Shown here piece after piece: positions 3,841 to 26,558 of a stretch of DNA of 64,000 nucleotides. Numbering within the stretch: the stretch's first letter is position 1; every line of letters starts with the position of its first letter. The translations under genes and the position numbers were made by a program. This DNA comes from Streptomyces sp. TP-A0356 (GTDB lineage Bacteria > Actinomycetota > Actinomycetes > Streptomycetales > Streptomycetaceae): positions 269,942 to 333,941 of the forward strand of contig NZ_BBZJ01000018.1 in NCBI RefSeq assembly GCF_001417775.1, in the 5' to 3' direction. The notes under the pieces are model-generated. The model was not told where the DNA came from. It saw only the letters and a list, made by a program, of their open reading frames with translations, and did not search any database.

Positions 3841-5334
3841 ATGTGGCTGTTCGGGGAGACCATGCCCCACGTACCAGTGGCAAGCCATACGCAGACACAC
3901 GTCATCCCGAAGCAACCACCGTCCGGGCGCCGCACCGGCAAGCCTGCCTGGTACGCGCCGGCCGCCGTCCTCGGTGACGTGGCCGGCGCCGCCGTGCCGG
4001 TGTACCTGTTCTTCGCGCTGGCCGACAGCCCGTACGCCGCGGCGTACGCGACAGCGGCGGCCGCGGCCTGGCTGCTCGTGCGCGGCGCACGGGACCGCTA
4101 CTGCGAACGCCGTCTCGGCGAGCGCGACAACATCGTCCCCGCACTGCAGGACTGGCTGGTGCTGGTCGGACTGCTCGCGGTGGTCAGGGCGGCGACGGGC
4201 GAGGAGTCCCCCTTCCTCCTCGCGCTCGCCGCCCTCGTGCCCTGCGCCCCGACGAGCGCCGGCGTGCAGACGCTGATCCACCGTCATCTGGTCACCCGGC
4301 GCCGGGGCGGCCGGGCCGTGCGCCGGGCCCTGCTGATCGGGGAGGCGGACGCGGTCGACGGTCTGGTGAGCCACCTCGCGAGGCGGACCGACCACGAGGT
4401 CGTCGTGGTCGGGGTGTGCCCGGTCGGCGACGAGGACCCCCAGGCCCTGGCCCCCGTCGCCGCCCGTCTCGACCGGCAGGCACCGCCGCGCATGTCGGCC
4501 GACTCCGCCCCGGTGCTGGAGGCGGCCCGGCGGCTCGACGTGGACGTGGTCCTCGTCGTGCCGGGTCCGTACATGGCCGGAACGCGTCTGCGCCGGCTGT
4601 CATGGGCCCTGCACGGCGAGGAGCGCCCGCTCGTGGTCGTGCCGGGCCTGACCGAGGTGGCGGGGCGCCGGGTGGGCGTCTCCTCCGTGGCCGGGCTCAC
4701 CATGCTGAACGTCGCCCCGCCCCTGCGGCGGGGGCTCGCGACACTGCTGAAGTCGGTGACGGACCGGCTCGGCGCGGCGCTGCTGATCGTGCTGCTGGCC
4801 CCGGTGTTCGCGGTGGTGGCCCTGGCCGTACGACTGGACTCCCCGGGCCCCGTCGTGCACCGGCAGACCCGCATCGGCCGGGGTGGGGTGCCCTTCACCA
4901 TGGCCAAGTTCCGCACCATGGTCGCCGACGCCGAGCGGCTCAGGCACCAGCTGGCCGGGACCAACGAGCAGGACGGCCGTATGTTCAAGATCCGCCGCGA
5001 CCCGCGGATCACCCGCGTCGGCCGGGTGCTGCGCCGCTACTCCCTGGACGAACTGCCCCAGCTGTTCAACGTGGTGCAGGGACACATGTCCCTGGTGGGC
5101 CCACGGCCGCCGCTGCCCGCCGAGGTCGCCGGATACGACGAGGTGGAGCTGCGCAGGCTGGCGGTCAAGCCGGGCCTCACCGGCCTGTGGCAGGTCAGCG
5201 GCCGCTCGGACCTGTCCTGGGACGAGACGATCGCCCTGGACCTCAGGTACGTGGACAACTGGTCCCCGTCCGTGGACCTCGGCGTCCTCGTCCGCACCGT
5301 CCGCGCGGTCATCGCGGGGACCGGAGCCTACTGA
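3841..5334 (+). CDS. Polyprenyl-phosphate sugar-phosphotransferase (priming enzyme of EPS synthesis)
   Basis: This protein should start repeat-unit assembly by transferring a sugar-1-phosphate from a UDP-sugar to undecaprenyl phosphate at the membrane. The 497 residues have the WbaP/CpsE build: several N-terminal membrane helices, a Rossmann-like segment around residue 160, one more hydrophobic helix near 310-330, and the cytoplasmic catalytic domain. Hallmarks are KFRTM near residue 356, LDELPQLFNV followed by MSLVGPRPP near 403-424, and PGLTGLWQVSGRS near 443. The ATG at 3841 is preceded by GGAGGG; an in-frame GTG at 3760 and an ATG at 3862 are alternatives. It opens the exopolysaccharide locus and is followed 75 nt later by a co-directional gene. 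The sugar specificity (hexose-1-P or HexNAc-1-P) cannot be read from sequence. Confidence 0.9.
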   Translation: MWLFGETMPHVPVASHTQTHVIPKQPPSGRRTGKPAWYAPAAVLGDVAGAAVPVYLFFALADSPYAAAYATAAAAAWLLVRGARDRYCERRLGERDNIVPALQDWLVLVGLLAVVRAATGEESPFLLALAALVPCAPTSAGVQTLIHRHLVTRRRGGRAVRRALLIGEADAVDGLVSHLARRTDHEVVVVGVCPVGDEDPQALAPVAARLDRQAPPRMSADSAPVLEAARRLDVDVVLVVPGPYMAGTRLRRLSWALHGEERPLVVVPGLTEVAGRRVGVSSVAGLTMLNVAPPLRRGLATLLKSVTDRLGAALLIVLLAPVFAVVALAVRLDSPGPVVHRQTRIGRGGVPFTMAKFRTMVADAERLRHQLAGTNEQDGRMFKIRRDPRITRVGRVLRRYSLDELPQLFNVVQGHMSLVGPRPPLPAEVAGYDEVELRRLAVKPGLTGLWQVSGRSDLSWDETIALDLRYVDNWSPSVDLGVLVRTVRAVIAGTGAY

Positions 5335-5409
5335 ACCACCGCCGGGCCCGCCCCCGTTCGACGGCACCGGCGACGACCACCACCACCGGCGATCCTCGGG
5401 GAGGGCCCC

Positions 5410-6672
5410 ATGCCGTCGAGAACACCCACCGACCACTCGTCCCGGAACCGCTTCCGGCCGGGCCACCACACCGCGGGCGGCCACCTTCCCGAGCCCTGTG
5501 ACACCGGGGACGTACTCCCCCTGGCGGACCGGCTCTTCCGGTGGGCCGACGCCCGCGACTGGGCGGGTCCCGACCCGTACGACGGGCTGACCGGCCCGCT
5601 GGGACGGCTGGCTGGTCACCGTGTGCTGCGGCAGGCGCTCCTGCAGGCGGTCAAACGCAGCCCGCTCGACCTGCGTCCGGTCCTGGGCATCCGCCCGCTG
5701 CGCACCGCGACGGCCACCGGATGCGCCGCGGGTGCCTGCGCCCGGCTCTCGTCGTCCCCCCTGTGGCGGGAGCGCGCCCTGCGTCTGGGCCGGCGGACGG
5801 CCGCCGAGCAGATGACGGGTCGTTACGCCGGCCTGTGGCGCTACGAGTTCGACGTACAGACCCGGTGGTCGTACTACCCCGCCTCCGTCCCCAACCTCGT
5901 GGCCACCACCTTCTGCGCGGACGGCTGCCTGGACACCGGGACACTCGACGACGATGCGGTGCGCTTGCTCGCCCACGGACTCCTTGAGCACCTGTACAAC
6001 GGCACGTTCTTCACCTACACCCCGACCAGCGGCGTCCTCGTCCACAACGCCAACCTCATGGGCGCCGCGCTCGCCGCCCGTCTGGCCCGCATCGGAACAC
6101 TGCCCGGCGGTCTGGCGGAACGTCTGGCCGGTGCCGCCCGCAGTGCCGTCGAGGTGAGCCTGGACGGCCAGCGTGCCGACGGTTCCTGGCCGTACGGACG
6201 GGGCCCGCGGCTGGACTGGGTGGACGGCTTCCACACCGGGTACGTGCTGCTGCGCCTCGAACAGGCGGGCACCCTGCTCGGTATGGATGTCCGGACCCCT
6301 CTCGAACGGGGGGCCGACCACTACCTGCGGAACCTGTTCGACGGCCCCCTGCCCCTCTACTTCGCGGGCGGCCGGACCAGACGGGACCCGAACAACGATG
6401 CGACAGCGGTACGGATGGCGGCGTGGGCGACCGAACGCGGCTTCGCCGCGGCCGACTTCGGGTGTGCCGTACTGGCAGCGGTCGTGGGACGCTATCCGGG
6501 CCTCGGCACCGGCACACCGGCCGAGGGCTCCCAGGGGAACGGGGCCCTGTGGAGGTCGCCCCGCTGGAGCGCCGCTCCGCTGCTGGACGCGCTGACCGCC
6601 CTCCACGCCGTGGTGGCGGGCGGGCCGCGCCCCTCCTCCCCCACCGCTCAGCGGACGGCGGCGGCCTCGTAG
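5410..6672 (+). CDS. Unassigned protein of EPS locus, probable alpha/alpha-toroid fold
   Basis: The 420-residue protein has no catalytic signature I can name. It is cytoplasmic in appearance, with no signal peptide or membrane helix, and helical, with repeated segments such as ADGSWPYG, DWVDGFHTGYVLLRL and NDATAVRMAAWA. These resemble repeats of six-hairpin/alpha-alpha-toroid proteins (squalene-cyclase or glycosidase type, or VpsJ-like proteins of polysaccharide clusters). A good ribosome-binding site (GGGGAGGG) precedes the ATG. It lies 75 nt after the priming transferase, so it is probably in the same transcript, and its 3' end overlaps the convergent methyltransferase gene by 25 nt. A role in trimming, modifying or exporting the polymer is an inference from position only. 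Confidence 0.7.
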   Translation: MPSRTPTDHSSRNRFRPGHHTAGGHLPEPCDTGDVLPLADRLFRWADARDWAGPDPYDGLTGPLGRLAGHRVLRQALLQAVKRSPLDLRPVLGIRPLRTATATGCAAGACARLSSSPLWRERALRLGRRTAAEQMTGRYAGLWRYEFDVQTRWSYYPASVPNLVATTFCADGCLDTGTLDDDAVRLLAHGLLEHLYNGTFFTYTPTSGVLVHNANLMGAALAARLARIGTLPGGLAERLAGAARSAVEVSLDGQRADGSWPYGRGPRLDWVDGFHTGYVLLRLEQAGTLLGMDVRTPLERGADHYLRNLFDGPLPLYFAGGRTRRDPNNDATAVRMAAWATERGFAAADFGCAVLAAVVGRYPGLGTGTPAEGSQGNGALWRSPRWSAAPLLDALTALHAVVAGGPRPSSPTAQRTAAAS

Positions 6673-7553
6673 CCCGACGGGACGTCGGCCCGCTCCTTCG
6701 GCCTCATGTGGACCCACAGATGCCAGCCCGCCACCCGGCCTCCGGGAAGACGGTGGACGGGCAACGGCGGCGCGTGCAGGAAGTGCTTGTGCGCCCGGGT
6801 GACGGAGAAGTCCGGGAAGTGCTGACGCACCGTGCGCACGTCGTAGACGCGTGAGTGCGGGTTGTCCGGCCCGTCGGTGTTGTGGTGGATGAACTCCCGC
6901 ATCCTCAGATAGCTGCGCAGCCCCGTACGGCGCGCGTTCGTCACATGCGCGCCGACGACTCCGGACGGCTTGAGCAGGCCGGCCCGGGCCAGGGGGTAGA
7001 CCACCGCCAGCGCGGCCCGCCGGACCAGGCCGATGGCCAGCAGATAGTTCAGCGACCACCGGGCATAGAGCATGACGACCAGCTCGCCTCCCGGGCGGAG
7101 CACCCGGTGGATCTCCCGCTGAGCCGCCAGGATGTCCGGCACATGGTGCAGCACACCATGGCTGAAGACCAGGTCGAAGGAATCGGCCGGGAACGGAAGA
7201 TCCAAGACGCTTCCGCAGTGCAGCCCCTCCCGGGGCAGGTTGCGCTGCGACAGCCGTGCTCCGACCCGCTCCACAGAAGTCCGGGTCAGATCGACACCCG
7301 TCCACAGCGCGCCCCGGCGAATGAGCTGTTCCGACTCGGCTCCCTGACCGAGACCGATTTCAAGCACCCGCCGACCGGCGACGTCGAGGTCATCGAGGCA
7401 CCCGGGGATGTGCGGCTCCAATCGGTACTTGAATGTGTCATACCGTGTGAAGAATTCCTCGGAGTCGGATCGGCCTCCTCTGGAGGCGCCACCCACCAGA
7501 TGGTCTCCGCACGGGTGCGCCGACCAGAATTCGGAAATTGTGTTCTCTCGCAT
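6648..7553 (-). CDS. Class I SAM-dependent methyltransferase (EPS locus)
   Basis: The 301-residue protein has the SAM-binding motif VLEIGLGQGAES near residue 65, a second acidic strand (GVDLT), and FDLVFSHGVLHHV, which mark a class I (Methyltransf_11-like) enzyme. The N-terminus FWSAHPCGDHLV is a motif shared with methyltransferases of cell-surface polysaccharide clusters. The methyltransferase at 21943-22707 has a related but looser start and very similar core motifs, so the two look like paralogues. Start: ATG at 7553 with AGGG 5 nt upstream. Its C-terminal coding end overlaps the convergent 5410-6672 gene. It probably O-methylates a sugar or lipid-linked intermediate; the substrate is unknown. 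It is divergent from the Wzy-like gene across a 365-nt spacer. Confidence 0.82.
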   Translation of the reverse strand: MRENTISEFWSAHPCGDHLVGGASRGGRSDSEEFFTRYDTFKYRLEPHIPGCLDDLDVAGRRVLEIGLGQGAESEQLIRRGALWTGVDLTRTSVERVGARLSQRNLPREGLHCGSVLDLPFPADSFDLVFSHGVLHHVPDILAAQREIHRVLRPGGELVVMLYARWSLNYLLAIGLVRRAALAVVYPLARAGLLKPSGVVGAHVTNARRTGLRSYLRMREFIHHNTDGPDNPHSRVYDVRTVRQHFPDFSVTRAHKHFLHAPPLPVHRLPGGRVAGWHLWVHMRPKERADVPSGYEAAAVR

Positions 7554-7918
7554 GTCGCCCTCTCACTCCGGTGAGGCAGCGGACGTCCGGGGACCGGAAC
7601 ATCGGCAATGAATTCCGGGTCAAGGCCTCACACCTCGTCAGCATGGTCACACAGCCGACAATCCCAAGCGGGGAACGCGGGACAGAACGCCCGAAGGAAC
7701 GAATGGCCTCTTACCCGAGCGGCTCATTCGGAGTGGAAATTCGGCCGGTAAGGTGCGTCGTCCGACATCGTAGAGGAAGTCATGACACTAGCGTGTCCCT
7801 CCGCGACCTCGCCATGGAAAACCGACCCTGCCGGACGGATATTCGGAGAGTCAGTGGCCGTTTGGAAGAGCAGCAATGTGATGGAATGCAAAAGCGCCTG
7901 CGACAGGTCAACACCCCT
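7554..7918. promoter_or_regulatory. Divergent promoter region between methyltransferase and wzy-like gene
   Basis: This 365-nt spacer is noticeably less GC-rich than the flanking genes and separates two divergent coding regions, so promoters for both should lie within it. Translation of the plus strand stays open through most of it, but codon usage is not Streptomyces-like, so I treat it as untranslated. I could not fix individual promoter boxes. Confidence 0.45.
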
Positions 7919-9418
7919 ATGAAGACGAATCAGGCCCGGAAAATCACGGCCACAACCGTCTGTTCCGTCCTCTACACGGGGATCGGCACGGCGGCACTGG
8001 CCGGCTTCCTCTTCTCGCCGAGCATGCTCTCGGTGATCTTGTTCTCCGCTGTGATAATGACGGCTTTCGCCCTTGTGGCGGCCCGGAACCCGCTCGCCGC
8101 GGGCCTCACCTGGCTGGTCCTGTCTCCCGTCCTCTATCCCTTCGCCCGCTATCCGCAGTCGGGGACAGTGCTGACGTTCGACCGTGTCTACCTGGGCGCC
8201 CTGGCTCTCACGGTCCTGCTGACAAGGCGGGCCGGAAGGCCGAGCGCCCCCGGTGTGCGGTCCTTCGTCACCGCGGTCACGGGGTTCGCCGCTGCCTTCC
8301 TCTGCCGTGCCCTGAGCACGCACCCCAGCAGCCTGGGCGCACTGCAGACCTTCATCGACGCGATCCTGCTCCCCTGCATCGCCTTCGCTGTCTGCCGCCG
8401 CACGGCGGACAGCCCCGGGCGACTGCGGGCCTGGGCGGCGGGACTGATGGTCTGCGGCACCTCTGTGGCCGTGCTCGGCATCACGGAGCACCTCTTCGGA
8501 TACGAGCTGGCGACCCTCAGCGGCGGAGCCGTGCGAACCGACACCGAGGTCGGCGGGTTGGTCCGTGTCTCCGGGCCGTATGCCGCCCCGGAGGTCTACG
8601 CGCTCACCCTGGCCCTGACACTCGCCGCGACGCTCTTCTGGTGGATGAGCGCGGGCCCCGACGGCTCGCGCCGAAGAGGGTTTGCCGCCCTCACGGGCCC
8701 CCTGCTGGCCGCCGTGCAGATCACGGGCATGGCGCTCTCGCTGTTCCGCGTGGCCTGGGCCTGTGCCCTCCTGGTCCTCTTCCTCGGGCTCGGCCTGCGG
8801 GCCGGGAAGAGGCTGAGACTCGCCGCCGTGGCCGTCGCCGTGGCCCTGGGGGCCCTCATCCTCTTCGTACCGTTGCAGGACAACGACCTCTTCCGTGCCC
8901 GCATGGCCGACACCGACAACGTGGCCGGCCGGTTCGCGACGTATCAGGTGGGTCTGGAGATCTGGCGTTCCGCCCCGGTCACCGGAGTGGGGATCAACCA
9001 GTTCGTCGAGGCTCAGAAGCGGGTCGACCCCAAGGTGGTGTGGGGCGTGCGGTCCGTGCAGTCTCCCCACAGCTCGTTCGTCGGGACGCTGGCGGAGCAG
9101 GGCGTGATCGGCTTCGCGGCCCTGCTCACCGTGTGCGGACACGGCACCAGGATGCTCCGCCGGCTCGGCCGGGCGGCACGTGAGGACGCGACGCGCCAAG
9201 TGCTGCATGCGGCCGTGATCGCCGGGGCCGTGTCCTATCTGGCCTTCTCCGTCGAGTTGACGATGCTGCCGCTGGGGCCGAGCAATGCCGTACTGGCCGT
9301 GGTCCTGGCACTCGCCGCGTCGGCCGTCGAAACGGCCCAGCGGCGACCGGCTCGTGAAAAGGCCGCGGCGGCGGCCCCGGAGCGGGCTCTGGCGCGTATC
9401 GCGGAGCCGGTGGCATGA
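7919..9418 (+). CDS. O-antigen ligase/Wzy-type polysaccharide polymerase
   Basis: The 499-residue protein is very hydrophobic, with roughly 11-12 membrane helices. In its middle-to-late part it has the Wzy_C/O-antigen-ligase signature: NVAGRFATYQVGLEIW, PVTGVGINQFVE and SPHSSFVGTLAEQGVIGF, a large periplasmic-type loop where lipid-linked repeat units are joined. It should polymerise, or ligate, the EPS repeat unit outside the membrane. Start choice is uncertain: the ATG at 7919 begins just before the first helix but has only a weak AGG upstream, and an in-frame ATG at 7886 is possible. Its last codons overlap the start of the flippase gene in ATGA, indicating translational coupling. Confidence 0.82.
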   Translation: MKTNQARKITATTVCSVLYTGIGTAALAGFLFSPSMLSVILFSAVIMTAFALVAARNPLAAGLTWLVLSPVLYPFARYPQSGTVLTFDRVYLGALALTVLLTRRAGRPSAPGVRSFVTAVTGFAAAFLCRALSTHPSSLGALQTFIDAILLPCIAFAVCRRTADSPGRLRAWAAGLMVCGTSVAVLGITEHLFGYELATLSGGAVRTDTEVGGLVRVSGPYAAPEVYALTLALTLAATLFWWMSAGPDGSRRRGFAALTGPLLAAVQITGMALSLFRVAWACALLVLFLGLGLRAGKRLRLAAVAVAVALGALILFVPLQDNDLFRARMADTDNVAGRFATYQVGLEIWRSAPVTGVGINQFVEAQKRVDPKVVWGVRSVQSPHSSFVGTLAEQGVIGFAALLTVCGHGTRMLRRLGRAAREDATRQVLHAAVIAGAVSYLAFSVELTMLPLGPSNAVLAVVLALAASAVETAQRRPAREKAAAAAPERALARIAEPVA

Positions 9419-10773
9419 CGGCCGTCAACGTCGGTGCCGCCGTGAGGACCTGCGCCAAGGTGAGGATCGCCTGGTCCTCCACGACGGTTCGTCAGGCCGT
9501 CGGCTTCGCCTGCTCGAATGCGGCGCTCGGCGGACTGGGCATGATCACGTCCGCGCTGCTGGCCAGGGCCCTGGACGTCGACGCCTACTCGAGCTACACG
9601 TTCGGCAAGCAGCTGCTCCTGTTCAGCGCGATGTTCTTCGAGTTCGGGCTGTTCCTACCCGCGGCCCGGATGCTGGCGCTCTCGGACCCGGCGGAACGGC
9701 GTCGCACCGCCGGCGCGGTCGTGGCGCTCTTCGTTCCGGTCTCCGTCCTGTTCGGGGTCACCGTCTTCGCGCTGTCCTGGATCGTGGACGCCTGCCTGGA
9801 CGTTCACGCGGGCCCGGCGCTGAGAATGGTGGCCCTCGTCTCGGTGGGTTACCCCCTCGACTTCGTGTGTCTCCAGACGGCCCAGGGTCTCGACCGGCTC
9901 CACAGCTACTCGATCGCCTCCGTACTGTCGCGGCTGGGTTTCCTCGGCCTGCTCATGACCCTGCCGACGACGGGGGTACGGCTGACATCGTCAGGAGTTC
10001 TTCTGGCGGACACCCTGTTCCTGCTCGTCGGCTGGGTCGCGCTCCTGGCGAACCTCCGGCCCGTGTTCCGCGGACTTCGCGAAACCATGTCGCGGATGCT
10101 CCGAGGTGCCCGTGACTACGGCTTCTCGGCCTACGTCGGCCGGGTACTGAGCATGGGCACCTACCACATGGACACGCTGATGCTCGGTGCCGCGAGCGAT
10201 CCGCGTTCGTTCGCCTGCTACATGTGTGCCGCAGCGCTCGCGTCTCCCATCGCCCTGCCGAGTGCGGGTGTGGCGACGGCGCTCTTCGGACGGCTCACCC
10301 GCCAGCCTCGTATGGAACCGCGCTGGGTCGCGACGGTGACGCTGATGAGCCTCCTACCGGCGGTCGCGTTGAGCACGCTGGCCGAGCCGGTGGTCCGGCT
10401 CGTCTATTCCGAGAAGTTCGAGATGGCGGCGGGCCTGGTACCGGTCCTGGCCGCGGCGCAGGTGATCAGCGCCGTGACCCGCCTGTTCAATTCCTTTCTG
10501 GCGGCGCACGGGCTCGGCTCGGACCTGCGGACCGCGGCGATCACCCTGACGGTGTCGAACCTCGTCCTCAACCTCCTGCTGATTCCGGCCTTCGGAGCCG
10601 CGGGAGCGGCATGGGCGAGCCTTCTCGCGCTGGCCGTGAACCTGATCGCCCACATCCTGCGCTACCGGCGGGCCGTGGACGCGGGGGAGACCGCCCTCCC
10701 GGACGGCGGGGGAAGCCCGGGAACGAGCTCCACGGTCCCGCCGCCGAGGGGTCAGGGCGCGACCGCGTGGTAG
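9415..10773 (+). CDS. Wzx-type polysaccharide flippase (MOP superfamily)
   Basis: The 452-residue integral membrane protein has about 12 to 14 helices in the two-bundle pattern of the MOP/Polysacc_synt family, beginning with ACSNAALGGLGMITSALLAR, the usual first helix of Wzx flippases. It should flip the undecaprenyl-diphosphate-linked repeat unit across the cytoplasmic membrane for polymerisation by the product of the preceding gene, with which it shares an ATGA overlap. The C-terminus is a short Gly/Pro-rich tail. Its 3' end overlaps the convergent asparagine-synthase gene by 22 nt, so transcription from both sides meets here. A murein-lipid-II flippase (MurJ) is less likely given the context. 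Confidence 0.85.
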   Translation: MTAVNVGAAVRTCAKVRIAWSSTTVRQAVGFACSNAALGGLGMITSALLARALDVDAYSSYTFGKQLLLFSAMFFEFGLFLPAARMLALSDPAERRRTAGAVVALFVPVSVLFGVTVFALSWIVDACLDVHAGPALRMVALVSVGYPLDFVCLQTAQGLDRLHSYSIASVLSRLGFLGLLMTLPTTGVRLTSSGVLLADTLFLLVGWVALLANLRPVFRGLRETMSRMLRGARDYGFSAYVGRVLSMGTYHMDTLMLGAASDPRSFACYMCAAALASPIALPSAGVATALFGRLTRQPRMEPRWVATVTLMSLLPAVALSTLAEPVVRLVYSEKFEMAAGLVPVLAAAQVISAVTRLFNSFLAAHGLGSDLRTAAITLTVSNLVLNLLLIPAFGAAGAAWASLLALAVNLIAHILRYRRAVDAGETALPDGGGSPGTSSTVPPPRGQGATAW

Positions 10774-12674: not shown

Positions 12675-12735
12675 CATGCCTCCGTCGTCGCACTCGGCGC
12701 CGCAGCCACCGGTACGGCGGCCGCGCCCCGGGAAC

Positions 12736-15018: not shown

Positions 15019-15019
15019 G

Positions 15020-18204: not shown

Positions 18205-20113
18205 CGACGGTGCACCTGCTCATCATCCGGTCCGTCAGCTCCTCGGCCGGGACGCCTTCGACCCATACGCGGTGCCACACCGCGAAGTTGAGGACGGGCC
18301 ACAGGGACCACGCATGCTGCGCCCGTCCGGCCCGGTGCTCGGCGACCATTTCGGAGAGGGTCCGGGTACGGAAGTACCGGCCCATCGCGGGCGAGGCCAG
18401 CAGGTCGAGGAGCGCGTCCCCCATGGGGCCGCGCAGCCAGTGCGCGATCGGGGCGCCGAATCCCTGCTTCCGCCGCTTCATCACCCTCTCGGGCACGATG
18501 TCGGCGAGGGCCTGTCGCAGAACGATCTTCGTGCGGTCCCGGTCCAACTTGTAGTGGACGGGCAGCCGGTAGGCGAACTCCACGAGCTCGGGGTCGAGGA
18601 AGGGAACACGGGCTTCGACCGAGTGCGCCATGGAGAACCGGTCGATGCGCATGAGAAGCAGCTCGGGCAGCCGGAGGGTGAACTCGTAGTGCTGGGTGTC
18701 GAACGCCACCGTCTGCAGGCCGGTCTCTCCGTCGCCGAGCGGAGGCCGGACGAGCGGCGGGTCGTACTGACGCGGGATCAGCAGCTCCGAGCGCAGGGTC
18801 GTGGGCATGCAGAGCGGGAAGTGCATCGGGTACTGCCTGCCCGCCGCGGCGCCCGAGAGGATGTCGTAGGCCCTGCCGCGCCGGGAGCGGGGCACCGCAC
18901 CGGCGAGGAGGCGGCGCGCGCCGACGGGCAGCCTCTGGAACATCTGCAGCTCGCGTTGCCGTCGCATCACGCGCGCATAGCCCGGGTATCCCCAGAACAG
19001 TTCGTCGGCTCCCTCACCGGCCAGCACCACGGGGACACCCCGCTGCCGGGCCAGGGCACAGACGAAGCCGAGGGGCATGCAGACCGGATCTGCGAGCGGC
19101 TCGTCCTGGTGGTGGACCATGGCCGCCAGCGTCTCCAGCGCCTCGCGGGGGGAGACCGTCACCTCGTGGTGGTCGGTGCCGAAGTGCCGGGCCACCCAGC
19201 GCGCCTCGTGCCGCTCGTCCAGCTCCGGTGCGTCGCCGAAGCCCACGGAGAAGGTCGAGGTGCCCTCGGCCCGGTCGCGCAGCAGCGCGACGAGCGCGGT
19301 GGAGTCGAAGCCGCCGCTGAGCAGGACCCCGACCGGAACGTCGCTCATCAGCCGGGCCTGCACGGACTGTTCCAGCAGGGTGCGCACCCGCTCCGCCGCG
19401 TCGGACAACGGCACATCGAGGAACGTGCGGCCCTCGGCGAGGTCGCGGTACCGCCATGTCCGCACGCCCCCGGCGTCGCACGTGCCGGCAGTCCCGGGAG
19501 GCAGCTTGTTGATGCCGCGGTAGAGGGTCGCCGGGGAGGGAACCACAAGGTTGGCCAGGTAGCTCTCGAGAACCGCGGTGTTGACCTCGGCGGTCACGCG
19601 TGGGTGAGCCAGCAGCGCCTTGGTCTCGGACGCGAACAGGAACGTGCCGTCCTGGACGGTCCAGTAGAAGGGCTTCTCCCCGACCGGGTCACGGGCGAAC
19701 AGAAGCCGCTCGGCACCGGGGTCCCAGAGCGCGAAGGCGAACATGCCGGTGAGGTGCTCGACGCACGCGTCACCGTAGTGCCGGTACGCGTGCAGAATGA
19801 CCTCGGTGTCGCAGTCGGTGCGGAAACGGGCGCCCCTGCCCTCGAGTTCCCGGCGCAGTGCGGGGTAGTTGTAGATCTCCCCGTTGAAGACCAGGCACTC
19901 CCCGCCCTCACCGAACATGGGCTGCAGGCCGTGGGACAGGTCGACGATGGCGAGCCGCCGATGACCGAGGCCCACCCGGCCGTCCTCGCTGATGTGGACT
20001 CCGGCGCCGTCCGGGCCCCGGTGGCCCAGGGTGTCCCGCATCCGCGTGACCGTTTCGGAGGTGACACGCCCCACCGCGCGTCCGTACTCGTAGATCCCTG
20101 CGATGCCGCACAT
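18194..20113 (-). CDS. asnB: Glutamine-dependent asparagine synthase-like amidotransferase (second copy)
   Basis: The 639-residue protein begins MCGIAGIYEYG, with Cys2 as glutaminase nucleophile, followed by HRGPDGAG, LVFNGEIYN and CDTEVILHAY. The PP-loop SGGFDST (near residue 264) opens the ATP-dependent synthetase domain. The conserved KxxxR region near the C-terminus (RRKQGFGAPI) is intact. The sequence is closer to the classical AsnB family than the copy at 10752-12674. In this operon it is more likely to amidate a sugar carboxyl group than to make free asparagine, although ordinary asparagine synthesis is not excluded. One nucleotide separates its start from the stop of the upstream glycosyltransferase gene. 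Confidence 0.89.
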   Translation of the reverse strand: MCGIAGIYEYGRAVGRVTSETVTRMRDTLGHRGPDGAGVHISEDGRVGLGHRRLAIVDLSHGLQPMFGEGGECLVFNGEIYNYPALRRELEGRGARFRTDCDTEVILHAYRHYGDACVEHLTGMFAFALWDPGAERLLFARDPVGEKPFYWTVQDGTFLFASETKALLAHPRVTAEVNTAVLESYLANLVVPSPATLYRGINKLPPGTAGTCDAGGVRTWRYRDLAEGRTFLDVPLSDAAERVRTLLEQSVQARLMSDVPVGVLLSGGFDSTALVALLRDRAEGTSTFSVGFGDAPELDERHEARWVARHFGTDHHEVTVSPREALETLAAMVHHQDEPLADPVCMPLGFVCALARQRGVPVVLAGEGADELFWGYPGYARVMRRQRELQMFQRLPVGARRLLAGAVPRSRRGRAYDILSGAAAGRQYPMHFPLCMPTTLRSELLIPRQYDPPLVRPPLGDGETGLQTVAFDTQHYEFTLRLPELLLMRIDRFSMAHSVEARVPFLDPELVEFAYRLPVHYKLDRDRTKIVLRQALADIVPERVMKRRKQGFGAPIAHWLRGPMGDALLDLLASPAMGRYFRTRTLSEMVAEHRAGRAQHAWSLWPVLNFAVWHRVWVEGVPAEELTDRMMSRCTVDAR

Positions 20114-20114
20114 G

Positions 20115-21869
20115 TCAGCCCCTCTCCAGGACCGGCCGGGGGGCGGGAAGGGACGGCAGGGACAGCTTCGAGAGGATCTGTGCCGCCCGCTTGTCCCAGG
20201 TGTGCTCCGCCAGTGCCTGTCGACGTGCCTCGAGTCCCATGGCCGCTCCCCGGTCGGGCAGTTCCAGCGCCCTTGTGACACCGGCGGCCAGGGACTTCGG
20301 GTCACCGGGCTGGGTGAGCATCGCCGTGACCGCGTCCACGAGGATCTCGCCGATCTGCTCCAGACGGCTGGCCACGATGGGCCTACCGAGTGCCATGTAC
20401 TCGAACACCTTCGTGGGTGAACCGAAGAACGCGCCATCTCCCTTCCACACATGGGGCGACAGCAGGACGTCGCAGCCCGACAGGACCCGGAGGGCCTCGG
20501 CCCGGGGAAGACTCCCGGTCCAGGTGATGCGGCCGCCCAGGCCCAGCCGGGCCGCCATCTGCTCACACGCCTCTCGCCGCTCCCCGTCGCCGACCATGAC
20601 CAGCTCGACGTCCCGGGGGAGGTGGCACAGGCATTCGATCGCCGCCTCGACACCGTGCCAGTGGCCGAAACTGCCGGCCCATCCCAGCAGGGCGCCCGGG
20701 CGGGGGTCCTTCGGTGCCGGTTCGGGAACATCCGCGGCGTCGACCGCGTTGGCCACCACCGCGATGCTCGCCGGATCGGCTCCCACGTCCGTCGCCATCG
20801 TCGCCGCACCGCGCGAGACCGCGGCCACGACATCGGCGCTCCTCGTGGTGTACCTCTCGTAGCGCTCCCCGAGGGCCGCGAAGAACTTCTTCGCGGGGCT
20901 CTGCCGGTACCAGTGCCGGTGCTCCCAGACGGCCGAGGCGTTCCATTCCAGGACGAAGGGGGTGCCCAGTCGGCGGCTGACATCGGCGCCCGCGCGGGTC
21001 AGGAAGGCATTGCGCTCGTAGACGAAGGCAGGCGGCATACGACGGGCGACGTCGAGGGCGGTCCTGCACATCTCGTCGTTGGCGGCGACCCACGCCGACT
21101 CCCTGGTGAACCGGGACCCCCGGGGCAACGGTGCGGCCATCTCGACGACATCGACCGCCGCCCGGAGCGGTTCGGGCGGACTGCCGTTGGTCACCAGGGC
21201 CACCCGCCAGCCGAGCTGCCGGAAACCGCCGAGGATGCCCGCCACATGACTGACGGCCCCGCCCGCCCCGGCGTCCGGGGCGTCCCGCCACAGGGCGAGG
21301 ATCCAGGACCGTCCGGCCGGAGCGGTACCGGATGGGTTCTTCGGTGGCCCCTCCACCTGAGAGGTCAGCCCCCTCACGAGGAGACGGCCGGCCGTGGCGG
21401 CGTCCCGGGCGCAGCGCGCCACCACGGGCCCGGTGCCGCCGACCGGCAGCGTGCGGCCGGGTGGGCGCGCGTCGATGACGCAGCGTTCTCGCACCGGCGC
21501 CAGCGCCAGCACCAGGTCGTAGGGGCCGGCGAACGTTCTGCGCGCCGCGTCCTTGCTGAGCAGCGCGACACCCGACACGTCCTGCCGCCTCAGCTGTGCC
21601 CGGTATCCGCCGAGGTTGCGGATGGCGTCGGACGCGGCCATCACCATGACCGGTTCCTGTCCGAGCACCTGGGCGGCGACGCGGCCCGCCTCATGGACCT
21701 GGGAGCGCGACTCGGCCAGGACCGCCCACCTCGATCCCCCGCCTCCACCGCTTCGACCATCGCTATGAGCAGACAGTGGAACCTCCAGAGGACGGCCGTA
21801 CGCATTCGGGCGAAGGCCAACATACGGCCGCGACTTCCTCTGTCGGCCCTGCAACACCGGAATACCCAA
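20115..21869 (-). CDS. Family 4 glycosyltransferase with long N-terminal extension
   Basis: The C-terminal about 390 residues are a GT-B glycosyltransferase of the GT4 type: FVYERNAFLTRAG, LEWNASAVWEH, LLGWAGSFGHWHG, ELVMVGDGERR and SPTKVFEYMALGRPIVAS. The first about 190 residues are an extra segment with a Rossmann-like feel (VMVMAASDAIRNLGGY, YDLVLALAP) ahead of the usual start point WILALWRDAPDAGAG. The open frame begins with TTG at 21869; no better start with a ribosome-binding site is visible, so the true N-terminus is uncertain. It is the first gene of the six-gene minus-strand operon and is divergent from the methyltransferase gene. It should add a sugar to the repeat unit. Confidence 0.78.
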   Translation of the reverse strand: MGIPVLQGRQRKSRPYVGLRPNAYGRPLEVPLSAHSDGRSGGGGGSRWAVLAESRSQVHEAGRVAAQVLGQEPVMVMAASDAIRNLGGYRAQLRRQDVSGVALLSKDAARRTFAGPYDLVLALAPVRERCVIDARPPGRTLPVGGTGPVVARCARDAATAGRLLVRGLTSQVEGPPKNPSGTAPAGRSWILALWRDAPDAGAGGAVSHVAGILGGFRQLGWRVALVTNGSPPEPLRAAVDVVEMAAPLPRGSRFTRESAWVAANDEMCRTALDVARRMPPAFVYERNAFLTRAGADVSRRLGTPFVLEWNASAVWEHRHWYRQSPAKKFFAALGERYERYTTRSADVVAAVSRGAATMATDVGADPASIAVVANAVDAADVPEPAPKDPRPGALLGWAGSFGHWHGVEAAIECLCHLPRDVELVMVGDGERREACEQMAARLGLGGRITWTGSLPRAEALRVLSGCDVLLSPHVWKGDGAFFGSPTKVFEYMALGRPIVASRLEQIGEILVDAVTAMLTQPGDPKSLAAGVTRALELPDRGAAMGLEARRQALAEHTWDKRAAQILSKLSLPSLPAPRPVLERG

Positions 21870-21942
21870 AAGTCATCCCGGAACCAGGAATCGCCGCCCC
21901 ATGGGAGACGCTTTTTCAGCCGTAATGGGTAGCATCCGGTTC
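21870..21942. promoter_or_regulatory. Short divergent promoter region
   Basis: This 73-nt, comparatively A-rich spacer separates the divergent glycosyltransferase operon and methyltransferase gene, so two promoters must lie in or near it. An in-frame ATG at 21901 could extend the methyltransferase into this region. No clear boxes were assigned. Confidence 0.35.
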
Positions 21943-22707
21943 ATGGAGACCGAAGCGCGCACAGCGGCGACAAAACAATGGTCGGAGAATCCGGCGGGTA
22001 TCAACCACGCAGCCGCACCAGAGGGAACACCAGAATTCTACGAACAAATGACACGCAGTCGATATGCACTACAGCCCTGGCTTCCGGACCTGCTGCGCTC
22101 GTGGGTACCCGCCGGGGGGCGTGTCCTGGAGATCGGGTGCGGTGCAGGAACCGACCACTCCGTAATTGCCGGAATCGCCCGGGAAACCGCCGCGATCGAT
22201 CTGGCTTCCCGCGGCGCCCGGCTGACTCAGAAACGACTGGAACTCGAGGGACGTCCGGGAATCGCTCAGGTGGCCGATGCCGAGGACATGCCCTTCCCGG
22301 ACCAGTCGTTCGACGGTGTCTACTCCTTCGGTGTGCTGCACCACACGGACCACCCGGAGCGCGTGGTCGAGGAGATGTGGCGAGTCATGCGTCCGGGCGC
22401 GACATTCATGGTCGCGCTGTACCACAAACACAGCATGTTCGCCGCGCAGAAGGCCATCGAGTACATCGTCCGGTTCCGCTGGCGTTCGCAGACGTGGCGG
22501 GACTTCCTTGCGGAGCTGGAATACGGAGCGGCCGACCTGGTACAGCGCCCGCTCGTGCGTCTCTACAGCCGGCAGGCCGCACGGAACCTGTTCGCCCGAT
22601 TCCACGACGTCCGCGTACGCACCGAGCACCCGGCCCTGAGCGGTTACCTCCTGTCGGACCGGCTCCGCCCCTTCGGCTGGTACGTCGTGGTGACCGGTCG
22701 GCGGTGA
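21943..22707 (+). CDS. Class I SAM-dependent methyltransferase (EPS locus, second copy)
   Basis: The protein has 254 residues from ATG 21943 (268 from ATG 21901; neither has a strong ribosome-binding site). It contains VLEIGCGAGTDHSV near residue 56, the acidic strand AIDLA, and FDGVYSFGVLHHTDHPERVV, the class I methyltransferase core. The N-terminal KQWSENPAG and GTPEFYEQMTRSRY are typical of methyltransferases found in surface-polysaccharide clusters. It resembles the protein encoded at 6648-7553. The substrate may be a sugar hydroxyl or carboxyl group of the polymer. The stop codon lies in a perfect 15-bp tandem duplication (22700-22729) that repeats the stop in frame. Confidence 0.82.
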   Translation: METEARTAATKQWSENPAGINHAAAPEGTPEFYEQMTRSRYALQPWLPDLLRSWVPAGGRVLEIGCGAGTDHSVIAGIARETAAIDLASRGARLTQKRLELEGRPGIAQVADAEDMPFPDQSFDGVYSFGVLHHTDHPERVVEEMWRVMRPGATFMVALYHKHSMFAAQKAIEYIVRFRWRSQTWRDFLAELEYGAADLVQRPLVRLYSRQAARNLFARFHDVRVRTEHPALSGYLLSDRLRPFGWYVVVTGRR

Positions 22708-22721
22708 ACCGGCCGGCGGTG

Positions 22722-22750
22722 AACCGGCCGGGCCGACGGCCCGGCCGGTT
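22722..22750. terminator. Bidirectional terminator between convergent genes
   Basis: A perfect 13-bp stem (AACCGGCCGGGCC, arms 22722-22734 and 22738-22750) with a 3-nt loop lies between the methyltransferase stop (plus strand) and the wecC-like stop (minus strand). Confidence 0.7.
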
Positions 22751-22800
22751 CCGTCTCGCCGCGCCGACTGTGGACACCCTGCGCAGCCGCCCACCGGGCA

Positions 22801-24042
22801 TTACCGCCAGATGCCCCGTGTGTCGAAGACGACCTTTCCCCTCAGCTGGGTCCGCTTGACCGCACGGAACGCGTCATGGTCGACCAGCAGGACGATGACA
22901 TCCGCCTCGTGGAGGGCGGCCTCGAGGTCGACGAGCTTGGACTGTCCCGTCTCGGCCAGCACGGCGGGCAGTTCATCGATGTGCGGCTCGACCACGAGCA
23001 GGCGGCCGACCTCCTGCCGGGCGAGTTCCGACGCGATGTGCAGGGCGGGGCTCTCCCGCAGATCGTCGACGTTCGCCTTGAAGGCGAGTCCCAGGCAGGC
23101 GATGACGGGGGACTTGAACCGCGAGGCCGTGTTCCGCACTTCGGCGATGACGTGCCCCGGCTTGGTGTCGTTCACCTGCCTCGCGGTTCTGATCAGCTGG
23201 GCCTGTTCGGGCGCCGCACTGACGATGAACCACGGATCGACGGCGATGCAGTGCCCGCCCACTCCCGGGCCCGGTTGCAGGATGTTCACCCGCGGATGCC
23301 GATTGGCCAGCGCGATCACGTCGGCGGTGTCGACGCCGAGCCTGTCGCAGATCATCGAAAGCTCGTTCGCGAAGGCGATGTTGACGTCCCGGAAGGCGTT
23401 CTCACTCAGCTTGGCGATCTCCGCGGTGGTGGCATCCGTGACATGGCACCGCCCCTGGGTGAACACCTCGTACAGGCCCTTCGCCCGAGCGCCGCAGCAT
23501 TCGCTCACCCCGCCGATCAGACGGTCGTTGGTGACGATCTCGATCATGATCCTGCCCGGCAGGACGCGCTCCGGGCAGTGTGCGACGTGCACGTCCGCGG
23601 CACTGCCGGCGCTGTGCGGGAAGGTCAGGTCGGGCCGACGCTCGGCCAGCCACCGGGAGAGCCGCAATGTCGTTCCCGGTGGCGACGTCGACTCCAGGAC
23701 CACGAGCGCCCCGGGTTGCAGCACATCGGCCACCGCTGTCGCCGCGTCCCGGACGTAGGAGAGATCCGGTTCCCGGTCCTCACCCACGGGAGTGGGGACG
23801 GCGATGATGAACGCGTCGGCAGGCTCGGCCTTCGACGAGGCCCGCAGGCGTCCCATCGCCACCGCACCGCTCACCGCGACGGCGAGGTCCGGTTCCACGA
23901 AGGGCGCCTGTCCGGCGTTGATCAGATCGACGGTGGCCTGGTTGACGTCCACGCCGACGACGTCCACTCCCTTGGTGGCGAGCGCGGCGGCGGTCGGCAG
24001 CCCGATGTATCCGAGCCCTACGACGGAGACGGTGCTGAACAC
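22801..24042 (-). CDS. wecC: UDP-N-acetylmannosamine dehydrogenase (WecC-like nucleotide-sugar dehydrogenase)
   Basis: The 413-residue member of the UDP-glucose/GDP-mannose dehydrogenase superfamily has the N-terminal NAD motif VVGLGYIGLPTAAAL, AHCPERVLPG near residue 157, and the catalytic-cysteine motif PGVGGHCIAVDPW near residue 257. The HCIAVDP form is typical of the WecC/UDP-HexNAc dehydrogenase branch, unlike the GSCFPKD form of the Ugd at 28021-29346. It should oxidise UDP-ManNAc to UDP-ManNAcA in two NAD-dependent steps, using the product of the wecB gene nearby. GTG at 24042 is preceded by GAAAGGA with good spacing, and the upstream open frame is not needed. It is downstream of the WecG-like gene in the same direction (88-nt gap). 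A UDP-GlcNAc dehydrogenase is the main alternative. Confidence 0.87.
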   Translation of the reverse strand: MFSTVSVVGLGYIGLPTAAALATKGVDVVGVDVNQATVDLINAGQAPFVEPDLAVAVSGAVAMGRLRASSKAEPADAFIIAVPTPVGEDREPDLSYVRDAATAVADVLQPGALVVLESTSPPGTTLRLSRWLAERRPDLTFPHSAGSAADVHVAHCPERVLPGRIMIEIVTNDRLIGGVSECCGARAKGLYEVFTQGRCHVTDATTAEIAKLSENAFRDVNIAFANELSMICDRLGVDTADVIALANRHPRVNILQPGPGVGGHCIAVDPWFIVSAAPEQAQLIRTARQVNDTKPGHVIAEVRNTASRFKSPVIACLGLAFKANVDDLRESPALHIASELARQEVGRLLVVEPHIDELPAVLAETGQSKLVDLEAALHEADVIVLLVDHDAFRAVKRTQLRGKVVFDTRGIWR

Positions 24043-24130
24043 ACGAGTTCCTTTCTCAACTTCGTCAAGCGGGAGCACAGGGGATAAGAGGTCATCGCCA
24101 GAGGACGAGAAGGGCGGAACCGCCACGGTG

Positions 24131-24928
24131 CTAGCCACGGTGGGTGCGCCGCGCCACGACGTCACGCAGGACCATCAGGACGAAGGCGGTGTTGCCGACG
24201 AGGTAGCGGGCGAACAGACGCCGTGGCTCCTGCATGAGCCGGAAGAGCCACTCCAGACCGGCCCTGCGCATGCATCGGGGAGCACGCGCCCGGATCCCGG
24301 CCACCACGTCGAAGGACCCGCCGACGCCCACCGCCAGGCCGCAGTTCAGTGCCACCAGATGCCGGGCGAGGAAGTACTCCTTCCGCGGTGTCGGCACCGC
24401 GAGGAAGAGAAGGTCGGGACGGGCCGCGCGGACGGCGGCGACCACGTCCTGCTCCTGTTCCTCCCGCCAGTAGCCATCGCGCTGTCCGACGACGTGCACG
24501 CCCCGGCTCGCCGCGATGGCCGCCACCCTGCTCACCACGTCGGGCTCGGCGCCCAGCAGGAAGACCCGGTAGTGCTCACGCGCGGCGCGTTCCCACAGAG
24601 CGAGCATGAGGTCGATACCGGTGACCCGTTCGGGCAGAGGCTGTCCGAGAATGCGGCCGGCCCACACCACCGCCTGTCCATCGGCATTGATCAGGGAACA
24701 GGAACGGATGATGCGCGCCAGTTCGGGATCCCGCCGGGCCCTGACGATTTTCGCCGCGTTCACCGACACGTGTTGGTGGGGTCGTCTTTCGGCGATCAAC
24801 TCTTCAGCCGCGGCGACGCTTTCCGCCAGGGTCAATGCGTGCACCGGAACCCCGCAAATGGGGACCGGAACTGTCTCGCTCAAGAGGGTCGACCGATCCA
24901 TCGGTGCGGGAACATTTTCAGGCCCCAT
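24131..24928 (-). CDS. WecG/TagA/CpsF-family glycosyltransferase (UDP-ManNAcA transferase-like)
   Basis: The protein has 265 residues from ATG 24928. The family (GT26) uses UDP-ManNAc or UDP-ManNAcA to extend an undecaprenyl-diphosphate-linked GlcNAc. Signature segments are VNAAKIVRARRD, INADGQAVVWAGRILG, ERVTGIDLM, VFLLGAEPD and AVGVGGSFDVVAG, in the expected order. The start is uncertain: GGAGG lies only 2 nt before ATG 24928, and ATG 24901 is a shorter alternative. With the dehydrogenase downstream and the divergent WecB-type epimerase it forms a complete make-and-transfer set for ManNAcA, as in enterobacterial common antigen. A membrane-proximal C-terminus (LFARYLVGNTAFVLMVLRDVV) is normal for the family. 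Confidence 0.87.
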   Translation of the reverse strand: MGPENVPAPMDRSTLLSETVPVPICGVPVHALTLAESVAAAEELIAERRPHQHVSVNAAKIVRARRDPELARIIRSCSLINADGQAVVWAGRILGQPLPERVTGIDLMLALWERAAREHYRVFLLGAEPDVVSRVAAIAASRGVHVVGQRDGYWREEQEQDVVAAVRAARPDLLFLAVPTPRKEYFLARHLVALNCGLAVGVGGSFDVVAGIRARAPRCMRRAGLEWLFRLMQEPRRLFARYLVGNTAFVLMVLRDVVARRTHRG

Positions 24929-25280
24929 AGCCTCCGCCTGGACAGTGGACGTGTTCGCCACGCTATGTGCCTGTGCCACCCATACGGTCCCTGAATTGCG
25001 CGACCGGCCCGTAACGCAACTCGAATGGACCACCTGGGGCACCGGCGCCGGCCTCGCCGGGACATACCGCCGGGCGCCGCTGTCACGCTGCGACGGAGAC
25101 GGCTCCCTCCGTCGAAAGGACGGCGGAACCGACGGTCCGGCCGATCATCAAGGACCTGAAAGGGCGATTTCCCTCGTCCGGCCAGCCGACTGACGCGCCC
25201 GCCTTCACCACCGGCCTCGTCCAGCGGGATAGCTAGCTGCATATGCACGAGTGCGGTGACCCCACAGCCGGAGGAGAGAC
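24929..25280. promoter_or_regulatory. Divergent spacer between wecG-like and wecB genes
   Basis: This 352-nt region separates genes transcribed outward, so promoters for both directions should be here. Several frames remain open but show no consistent codon bias. A strong ribosome-binding site (GGAGGAGA) at its right end serves wecB. No individual promoter or operator was recognised. Confidence 0.4.
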
Positions 25281-26558
25281 TTGAAGCGAATCATGGCCGT
25301 CTACGGAACCCGGCCGGAAGCGATCAAAATGGCCCCCGCTGTCGAGGCGCTGCGGGAGTCGGCCGGCTTCGAGCCGCTGGTCGCGGTCACCGGACAGCAC
25401 CGGTCGATGCTCGACCAGGTGAATCGGCTGTTCGGCATCGAACCCGACTACGACCTGGACATCCTCAGCGCCGGGCAGACTCTGACCGACATCACCAACC
25501 GCACGCTGCACCGGCTGCGGCCCGTCCTCGAGAAGGAACGGCCGGACGCGGTGCTCGTCCAGGGGGACACCACCACCACGCTGGCGGGTGCGCTGGCCGC
25601 CTTCTACCAGAAGATCCCCGTCTTCCATCTGGAGGCGGGGCTGCGGACACGAAGCAAGTACGCTCCCTACCCGGAGGAGATGAACCGCCGGCTCACCACC
25701 CGGCTGGCGGACCTGCACCTGGCGCCGACCACGAACGCACGGCAGAACCTCCTGCGCGAGGGAGTCGGGGAGAAGTCGGTCGTCGTCACCGGCAACACGG
25801 TCATCGACGCCCTGCTCAGGACCCTTGACCGCACGGCCGACCAGGCGTCCGACCCCACCATGGAGCTCCTGGAGAAGGACCCCCGGCGAGTCCTCCTGGT
25901 CACGGCACACCGCCGCGAGTCCTGGGGCGAAGGCATGGAGTCCATCGGCGGCGCCCTCGCCACCCTGGCCGCGCTCCACCCCGACCTGCTGGTGGTCTTC
26001 CCCATTCACCGCAACCCGGCCGTACGGTCCGCCATCCTGCCCAAGGTCGCGGGACTGGAGAACGTCAGGGTGGTGGAGCCGCTGGACTACCAGGGCTTCG
26101 CCCATCTGATGAACCGTGCGCATCTCATCCTCACGGACAGCGGCGGTGTCCAGGAGGAGGGGCCCAGCCTCGGCAAGCCGGTCCTGGTGATGCGTGAGAG
26201 CACCGAACGCCCCGAGGGGGTGACCGCGGGAACCGTGGCACTTGTCGGCACCGACGGCGCGCGCATCGTGGCCGAGGTGACGCGATTGCTGCGTGACCCC
26301 GTGGCGCACGCCAGGATGGCGCAGGCCGTGAATCCCTACGGTGACGGGCGCGCGGCGGAGCGCATGGTCCAGGCCCTGGGGCACTGGTTCGGACTGTGCG
26401 ACGCACCGGCGGACTTCATCGGGGCGTCGGCCGTGGCCGCCGCGGCCACGGCCGGGGACGACGTCCCGGCGCAGTCTCGCCGACACGACGCGCTGGCCGC
26501 CGGTCTTGAAGGGGACGGGCTCCGCCTCTCCCTGTCGGGCGGCGTCGGCCACCCCTGA
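25281..26558 (+). CDS. wecB: UDP-N-acetylglucosamine 2-epimerase (non-hydrolysing)
   Basis: The 425-residue protein interconverts UDP-GlcNAc and UDP-ManNAc and supplies the WecC-like dehydrogenase. It has every family landmark: YGTRPEAIKMAP at the N-terminus, GQH near residue 45, VQGDTTTTLAGALAAFY near 95, HLEAGLRTR and EEMNRRL near 115-140, TAHRRESWG near 212, and TDSGGVQEEGPSLGKPVLVMRESTERPE near 285. The start is TTG at 25281, chosen because the family begins K(R/V)xxxxYGTRPE and a strong Shine-Dalgarno sequence precedes it; ATG at 25293 is an alternative. It is about 45 residues longer than usual, with a low-complexity Ala/Gly tail after residue 380. Monocistronic; it is followed by a 425-nt non-coding stretch. 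Confidence 0.93.
   Translation: MKRIMAVYGTRPEAIKMAPAVEALRESAGFEPLVAVTGQHRSMLDQVNRLFGIEPDYDLDILSAGQTLTDITNRTLHRLRPVLEKERPDAVLVQGDTTTTLAGALAAFYQKIPVFHLEAGLRTRSKYAPYPEEMNRRLTTRLADLHLAPTTNARQNLLREGVGEKSVVVTGNTVIDALLRTLDRTADQASDPTMELLEKDPRRVLLVTAHRRESWGEGMESIGGALATLAALHPDLLVVFPIHRNPAVRSAILPKVAGLENVRVVEPLDYQGFAHLMNRAHLILTDSGGVQEEGPSLGKPVLVMRESTERPEGVTAGTVALVGTDGARIVAEVTRLLRDPVAHARMAQAVNPYGDGRAAERMVQALGHWFGLCDAPADFIGASAVAAAATAGDDVPAQSRRHDALAAGLEGDGLRLSLSGGVGHP

Follow-up and report, generated by a model that had tools for sequence, protein, structure and literature searches.

Which surface glycan would a Streptomyces cell build with polysaccharide assembly genes and genes for N-acetylmannosaminuronic acid (ManNAcA) gathered at one genomic site? 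We investigated this for a locus of Streptomyces sp. TP-A0356 that occupies positions 3841–26558 of a 64,000-nucleotide stretch of its 8.4 Mb genome (G000:C18:269942-333941, contig NZ_BBZJ01000018.1; hereafter the window). Reading frames were called by GC content by codon position, and 20 genes lying between 281 and 31256 went through a Pfam scan; an NCBIfam scan covered 19 of these, all but the methyltransferase MT2. These family scans placed a priming transferase, a Wzx-like protein, Wzy, two GT4 enzymes, WecB, WecC and WecG where the original prediction had put them. That gene list had left out, from the same 23 kb, two AsnB-type proteins, a bi-domain oxidoreductase (biox), a heparinase II/III-family protein (hep), two methyltransferases and a predicted toroid protein, here called Tor (Table 1). 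Together, the sequences suggest, at a probability of roughly 70%, that the locus is a Wzx/Wzy/Wzc-dependent cluster for a surface or wall heteropolysaccharide. Its ManNAcA-type residue is likely to be amidated and may possibly be epimerised at C5, although we hold this uronate tailoring with less confidence than the core assembly pathway.

WecB and WecC both exceed their NCBIfam equivalog cut-offs (Table 1). In an alignment with the solved structure of Cap5O (3ojl), the Cys of the WecC motif GGHC (residue 265 in the 413-aa form) and the Lys of KLSEN are matched, and WecB agrees with 1f6d at the Asp, the two Glu and the His that are catalytic in the E. coli enzyme. WecG aligns with TarA (7mpk) over 225 residues, with ADG opposite PDG, including the motif Asp. 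We take the WecC Cys and Lys, the WecB Asp, Glu, Glu and His, and the Asp of the WecG A/P-DG motif to have catalytic roles. In profile searches, the sole matches of the genome to PF03808 (WecG), PF02350 (WecB) and PF02706 (Wzz) were all at this locus, where wecG immediately precedes wecC and shares its strand (22801-25042). With equivalog-level WecB and WecC, catalytic positions kept and wecG adjoining wecC, the predicted Wzx/Wzy-type locus able to make UDP-ManNAcA is supported.

The original prediction saw no chain-length regulator or tyrosine kinase and suggested that length control and export may differ from those of Gram-positive capsules. The first statement is correct for the window but not for the genome, as the window simply ends before these genes. 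The single PF02706 match lies 3.4–3.7 kb before the window's first base in a Wzc-type protein, and the Wzb, Wzc and DUF4012 genes sit 0.6–5.5 kb before that base, in a stretch that also holds dnaK-grpE-dnaJ. Wzc and DUF4012 are found beside the locus in five of six close relatives retrieved with biox (G614, G546, G568, G470 and G505); the exception, within the 36 kb fetched, is G432. L148, L150 and L155 have both genes there as well. With Wzc and Wzb just outside the window and Wzc kept in these relatives, the suggestion of a different length control and export is not supported. The locus is flanked by Wzb-Wzc-DUF4012, adjoining dnaK, on one side and by upp/dcd on the other. The priming transferase PGT reached neither the WcaJ nor the WbaP cut-off of NCBIfam, so these families do not indicate its sugar. 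Two PF00953 genes lie elsewhere in the genome, one of which could be a WecA-type primer, with MraY as the alternative.

In the pathway that we propose, WecB and WecC would convert UDP-GlcNAc to UDP-ManNAcA, and PGT (or a WecA-type enzyme encoded elsewhere in the genome) would prime undecaprenyl phosphate. ManNAc(A) would enter through WecG, with the GT4 enzymes completing the repeat. The uronate carboxyls would be amidated by AsnB1 and AsnB2, while the substrate of biox, Tor and, where present, hep would be either the sugar or the repeat on its lipid carrier, probably at a stage preceding the flip by Wzx. Wzy would then polymerise under Wzc/Wzb control.

The distribution of the locus was followed through biox, counted at E ≤ 1e-60. 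By this count biox occurs in 139 of 343 same-genus genomes (three candidates scored per genome) and, phylum-wide, in 21 of 296, own genome included in both cases. Close versions (70–91% identity) are present in 6 of the 342 other same-genus genomes (G614, G432, G546, G568, G470, G505); the other 132 genomes carry versions at 40–47% identity, one of which G470 holds too. Gene content of the six relatives was examined by tblastn at E ≤ 1e-6. Homologues of tor, wecB and wecC were present in all six, and those of PGT (not G432), asnB1 (not G505) and wecG (not G505, whose contig ends first) in five each. Homologues of hep, GT4a, GT4b, asnB2, Wzx and Wzy were found in G614 and G546; they were not found in G568 and G470, in stretches reaching from dnaK to past wecG, or in the rearranged G432, and G505 is cut off. 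In their place, G568 carries another Wzy_C protein, a glycosyltransferase, an FkbM methyltransferase and, judged by eye and with no Pfam match, a hydrophobic flippase-like protein. Comparison of locus order with other genomes, which had been proposed as a check, revealed a constant core of Tor, biox, WecB and WecC and, mostly, PGT, AsnB1 and WecG. The Wzx, Wzy, glycosyltransferase, hep and AsnB2 genes appear replaceable between species, which, as seen in six genomes only, is the pattern of a serotype locus.

A second, commoner locus (about 132 of 343 genomes by biox score) was opened in G007, G020 and G031 (L032–L037), where it holds PGT, a UDP-glucose-type dehydrogenase, GT4, AsnB, biox and a heparinase at 29–48% identity to the window genes.

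The candidate tailoring genes often occur together. In the window, GT4b, asnB2, hep, GT4a and biox form a minus-strand run whose neighbours are 1 base apart or overlap by 4–11 bases, and asnB1 lies 61 bases further; the gaps and overlaps are so short that these genes look like one transcription unit. Across 14 distant biox loci of 20–36 kb each (4 from a first locus set and 10 of the other 20 phylum matches), asnB was found in 13 (not G321), a heparinase in 12 (not G246 or G152) and a nucleotide-sugar dehydrogenase in 9 (not G372, G321, G246, G297 or G344). Among 23 same-genus biox loci (L003–L025; E < 1e-80, 1.5-kb flanks, own locus excluded), asnB adjoins biox in 23 and a heparinase does so in 20. 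AsnB1 and AsnB2 both keep the glutaminase Cys2 and the SGGxDS synthetase motif, and both pass the general asparagine-synthase cut-off. In P. gingivalis, according to excerpts of the source, the AsnB-type WbpS amidates uronate and deletion of wbpS abolishes the uronamide (PMC7468200; WbpS is also discussed in an excerpt of PMC3684757). By analogy, amidation of uronate carboxyls by the AsnB pair is likely. Because the genome has three more PF00733 genes at other sites, the pair need not be housekeeping, and a role as housekeeping asparagine synthetase is less likely.

Several observations weigh against the proposed pathway or parts of it. The Wzx-like protein scores under its own Pfam cut-off (Table 1), and PGT, Wzc, Wzx and Wzy were not found in the 36 kb of the rearranged G432. 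WecG falls under both equivalog cut-offs (ManNAcA transferase NF002980, 126.7 vs 323 bits; TarA, 121.2 vs 350 bits), and AsnB1 and AsnB2 are below that of the WbpS-type family TIGR03108 (223.3 and 473.2 vs 816.9 bits). The biox locus of G153 has asnB, with heparinase and dehydrogenase not found in 20 kb, and neither asnB nor heparinase was found in the 13–14 kb of the biox loci L174 and L175. Finally, hep and AsnB2 were not found in G568 and G470, both of which keep WecB, WecC and WecG, and are thus not tied to ManNAcA.

For hep, a role as a lyase, shortening the polymer or clearing it away, rather than as an epimerase, stands only a little short of an even chance. The closest solved relatives of hep are heparinase III lyases (4mmi/4mmh, 49.7 bits), with N251 and H451 aligned with lyase residues, and its mildly hydrophobic N-terminus (17-aa mean 1.44) leaves export possible. 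However, the gene sits within a tight biosynthetic run, and no clear export signal was seen in 15 alignment rows by simple hydropathy, with several start codons uncertain. In the same 15 rows N251, H252, Y305, H451, H453 and Y477 are identical throughout. The human uronate epimerase DS-epi1 shares this fold, carries a His/double-Tyr site and is similar to bacterial lyases; the authors of that study propose that a lyase can become an epimerase through minute changes (PMC8006597, excerpts). Like the DS-epi1/heparinase II-III superfamily, hep has Pfam heparinase domains, and the hep-DS-epi1 residue match is inferred from spacing; hep differs in sitting in a bacterial biosynthetic cluster. Because of the biosynthetic operon and the lack of a clear export signal, epimerisation or trimming before export seems somewhat better supported than degradation outside the cell. 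An AF2 model of hep was poor (pLDDT 46.7, from 3 sequences) and was not used. In S. suis, hepC and the capsule genes are listed apart in the excerpt of the source. With its active-site residues intact inside biosynthetic clusters, hep raises the question of lyase or epimerase for a gene module that is widespread.

The product could also be a wall-linked, teichuronic-acid-like polymer attached by an LCP enzyme instead of a secreted exopolysaccharide, and we consider this a substantial possibility, if somewhat less than an even one. In excerpts of the respective sources, the teichuronic acid of Micrococcus luteus is ManNAcA-Glc (PMC3005890), and the teichoic acid of S. griseus bears a ManNAc3NAcA teichuronic polymer, a toxin receptor made by a Utr locus that varies between species (PMC13274773). 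The Utr locus shares with ours a UDP-sugar dehydrogenase and a 2-epimerase feeding a mannosaminuronate-type residue, as well as species-variable content. However, the S. griseus route uses an aminotransferase/oxidase pair, whereas no aminotransferase is present among our 20 scanned genes (biox has a Gfo/Idh/MocA domain); Utr is anchored at tagF and the ribosomal L21/L27 genes, whereas our site runs from dnaK to dcd; and the words Wzx and flippase are absent from the text that describes it (PMC13274773, as excerpted). A Utr-type teichuronic locus is ruled out by gene content and genomic site, and the genes of the present locus do not separate a wall-linked from a secreted product. Streptomyces surface glycans are receptors for the umbrella toxins of rival species, and two targeted species are without the known teichuronic genes (PMC13274773, excerpts). 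The present locus, a second one of ManNAcA type that varies like a serotype locus and occurs in only some Streptomyces, is a candidate source of umbrella-toxin receptors.

By family score the sugar that WecG transfers may be ManNAcA or ManNAc, because the protein lies under both equivalog cut-offs; it passes the superfamily cut-off of TIGR00696 (139.4 vs 69 bits). WecG might act like TarA and transfer ManNAc, with UDP-ManNAcA used by another transferase or minor. Its solved relative is TarA (7mpk) and it scores almost alike against the TarA and WecG equivalogs (121 and 127 bits), but wecG is directly upstream of wecC and wecG-wecC-wecB occur together in 8 of 10 other same-genus wecG regions fetched (not G009 or G034), and we regard a TarA-like WecG as improbable. 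From this gene adjacency, it is plausible that WecG transfers ManNAcA rather than ManNAc. That the Wzy_C-family protein is an oligosaccharide ligase, the locus glycosylating proteins and making no free polymer, is very unlikely. In its favour, PF04932, a family that fits a polymerase or a ligase alike, is described as O-antigen ligase, and there is a weak PEP_O_lig_1 match (29 bits vs a cut-off of 188), but the Wzc co-polymerase kinase and Wzb phosphatase beside the locus fit chain polymerisation.

The locus had been called the best candidate for an undescribed system. Its kind is known. The Wzx/Wzy clusters wps-1, wps-2 and imp of Actinoplanes missouriensis, needed for normal sporangia, have in common with it Wzx, Wzy, a Wzz-domain protein, sugar transferases and an S-adenosylmethionine (SAM) methyltransferase; they differ in that sulfotransferases or aminotransferases are named, not WecB, WecC or WecG, in the excerpts of PMC13390465, a text that contains neither the term heparinase nor asparagine synthase. 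Enterobacterial common antigen shares the WecB-WecC-WecG enzyme families, but our locus has a PHPT-type primer and adds two AsnB proteins, biox, Tor and hep. For Fuc4NAc genes, no aminotransferase or acetyltransferase family was found among the 20 genes scanned (281-31256), and a locus like that of enterobacterial common antigen was ruled out by gene content. Staphylococcus aureus capsule 5/8 contains ManNAcA in a Gram-positive organism, and its Cap5O is the best solved match of WecC. That capsule system is not known to include a GT26 enzyme or AsnB. Neither the pathway type nor the sugar class is new for Streptomyces, given the A. missouriensis Wzx/Wzy clusters, M. luteus ManNAcA, S. griseus ManNAc3NAcA and WecG-family genes in 27 of 120 relatives, own genome included. 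No description of this locus was found among the papers listed by searches of open-access literature; as far as the searches show, the gene combination and the Tor family are the new part.

Tor gave no match in the Pfam and NCBIfam scans. Among 27 homologues, a few have weak toroid matches, including Prenyltrans in 4 (best 1.6e-5), and their alignment holds 18 invariant residues (D148, H212, N213, D272, H275, D326 and R385 among them), which suggests that Tor is an enzyme. The AF2 model is an (alpha/alpha) barrel. VIA-align placed cellobiose 2-epimerase 9l8i on top (Z 25.5, rmsd 3.6, 321 residues aligned), a match of fold only, followed by GH76 mannanase (24.1), drimenyl diphosphate synthase 7xqz (24.0) and GH88/105 hydrolases (22–23). 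Foldseek put drimenyl diphosphate synthase first (E 3.5e-4, TM 0.47) and cellobiose 2-epimerase next (E 3.7e-4). Because several toroid families are this close in Z and the Foldseek order differs, no activity (AGE epimerase, GH88/105) was assigned from the fold alone. Tor may resemble Vibrio VpsJ, a likeness for which a literature search gave no support.

Few genomes carry Tor (4 of 396 in the phylum, own included), and its genomic context was examined at 30 loci, 9 from Streptomyces (two of these from one strain) and 21 from elsewhere. Outside Streptomyces, wecG is directly downstream of tor on the same strand in 15 of the 21 loci (11 from Kocuria and one each from Arthrobacter, Aeromicrobium, a Coriobacteriia metagenome-assembled genome and an unclassified actinobacterial one). 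At the remaining six, biox adjoins tor in four (L162, L165, L174, L175), and L172 and L177 have neither wecG nor biox as neighbour. In the Streptomyces loci the neighbour of tor is PGT, not wecG; carriers named in the Tor search are S. hygroscopicus ATCC 21589, S. shenzhenensis, S. glomeratus, S. cellulosae, S. actuosus, S. diastatochromogenes, Streptomyces sp. NBC_01549 and CoH27. In about five lineages outside Streptomyces, WecG-family genes are immediately preceded by tor, whose enzyme-like family is conserved and unannotated. More speculatively, and we think this combination unlikely, Tor would define a new (alpha/alpha)-barrel enzyme family that serves WecG (GT26) pathways specifically and works on a ManNAc(A)-bearing lipid-linked intermediate. 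With hep as uronate C5-epimerase and the AsnB amidases, it would yield a previously unseen residue (e.g. L-GulNAcA, formed from D-ManNAcA and amidated) in surface glycans of Streptomyces that vary between species by assembly-gene swaps around a constant ManNAcA core.

In G372 (L116/L117), GT4a and Tor share one open frame of about 880 aa (880–884). Eight same-genus regions with wecG-wecC-wecB together (L068–L083; G033, G041, G025, G054, G042, G039, G012, G046) have before wecG an unannotated, conserved toroid-like protein that differs from Tor. Clean frames show it in six regions, and in G025, as a seventh, it was found through gene calling. It has no Pfam match, and its hhalign match to Tor was weak (a probability of 5% in one direction and of 32%, P 5e-4, in the reverse one). 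In G025, wecG-wecC-wecB are followed, as judged by eye, by Wzz-like and flippase-like genes.

Table 1. Features of the locus and of the stretch just upstream. Positions are those of the window except where L178 is given (window base 1 = L178:14943); scores are in bits.
Feature	Position	Strand	Basis
Wzb-type low-molecular-weight phosphatase	L178:9434-10072		LMWPc
Wzc-type Wzz + P-loop kinase protein, 467 aa	L178:10069-11472		PF02706 30.2 (49.9 in genome search); AAA_31
DUF4012 protein	L178:12570-14372		
PGT, priming polyprenyl-phosphate hexose-1-phosphate transferase	3841..5334 (start could be 3760)	+	PF02397 215; TIGR03025 EPS_sugtrans 363, cut-off 295.6
Tor, 420-aa (alpha/alpha)-toroid protein	5410..6672	+	AF2 pLDDT 85.9; no Pfam or NCBIfam match
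MT1, SAM methyltransferase	6648..7553	-	PF08241 82.6
Wzy-like polymerase/O-antigen ligase family membrane protein	7886..9418 (open frame from 7538)	+	PF04932 (Wzy_C) 65.5; ~12 hydrophobic segments
Wzx-like flippase	9415..10773	+	PF01943 22.4, E 9.5e-5, cut-off 28.2; ~9 hydrophobic segments
AsnB1, glutamine-dependent amidotransferase/synthetase	10752..12674	-	PF00733 189; TIGR01536 282, cut-off 267; Cys2 + SGGVDS
biox, bi-domain oxidoreductase (MDR/ADH-like + Gfo/Idh/MocA)	12736..15018	-	PF08240, PF00107, PF01408, PF22725; EKP motif
GT4 glycosyltransferase a	15020..16225	-	PF13579 66.9
hep, heparinase II/III-family protein	16222..18204	-	PF07940 136; PF16889 59
AsnB2, glutamine-dependent amidotransferase/synthetase	18194..20113	-	PF00733 320; Cys2 + SGGFDS
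GT4 glycosyltransferase b	20115..21869 (start 21647 or 21869)	-	PF13692 78.8
MT2, SAM methyltransferase	21901..22707	+	PF08241 74.9
WecC-type UDP-ManNAc dehydrogenase	22801..24165 (start 24042 or 24165)	-	NF008286 623, cut-off 459; Cap5O 3ojl 333
WecG/TagA/CpsF (GT26) transferase	24131..25042	-	PF03808 186; TarA 7mpk 137
WecB, non-hydrolysing UDP-GlcNAc 2-epimerase	25281..26558	+	TIGR00236 476.6, cut-off 210; 1f6d 424.6

Beyond the locus, between a Yip1 gene and upp/dcd (28021-31256), lie a UDP-glucose-dehydrogenase-like gene (28021-29346), a frame for a 62-aa membrane peptide and a NodC/hyaluronan-synthase-like GT2 gene (29892-31256), whose product matches hyaluronan synthase 7sp7 at 44.9 bits. 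They are not at the equivalent place in G614 or G568, and for this reason the stretch looks like a separate inserted polysaccharide cassette. On the other side, a CCG/4Fe-4S domain protein (1313-3619) is encoded between a glutamine-cyclotransferase-like gene and PGT; it is not between DUF4012 and PGT in L148, L150 and L152, and is found nearby in G614, G568 and L155.

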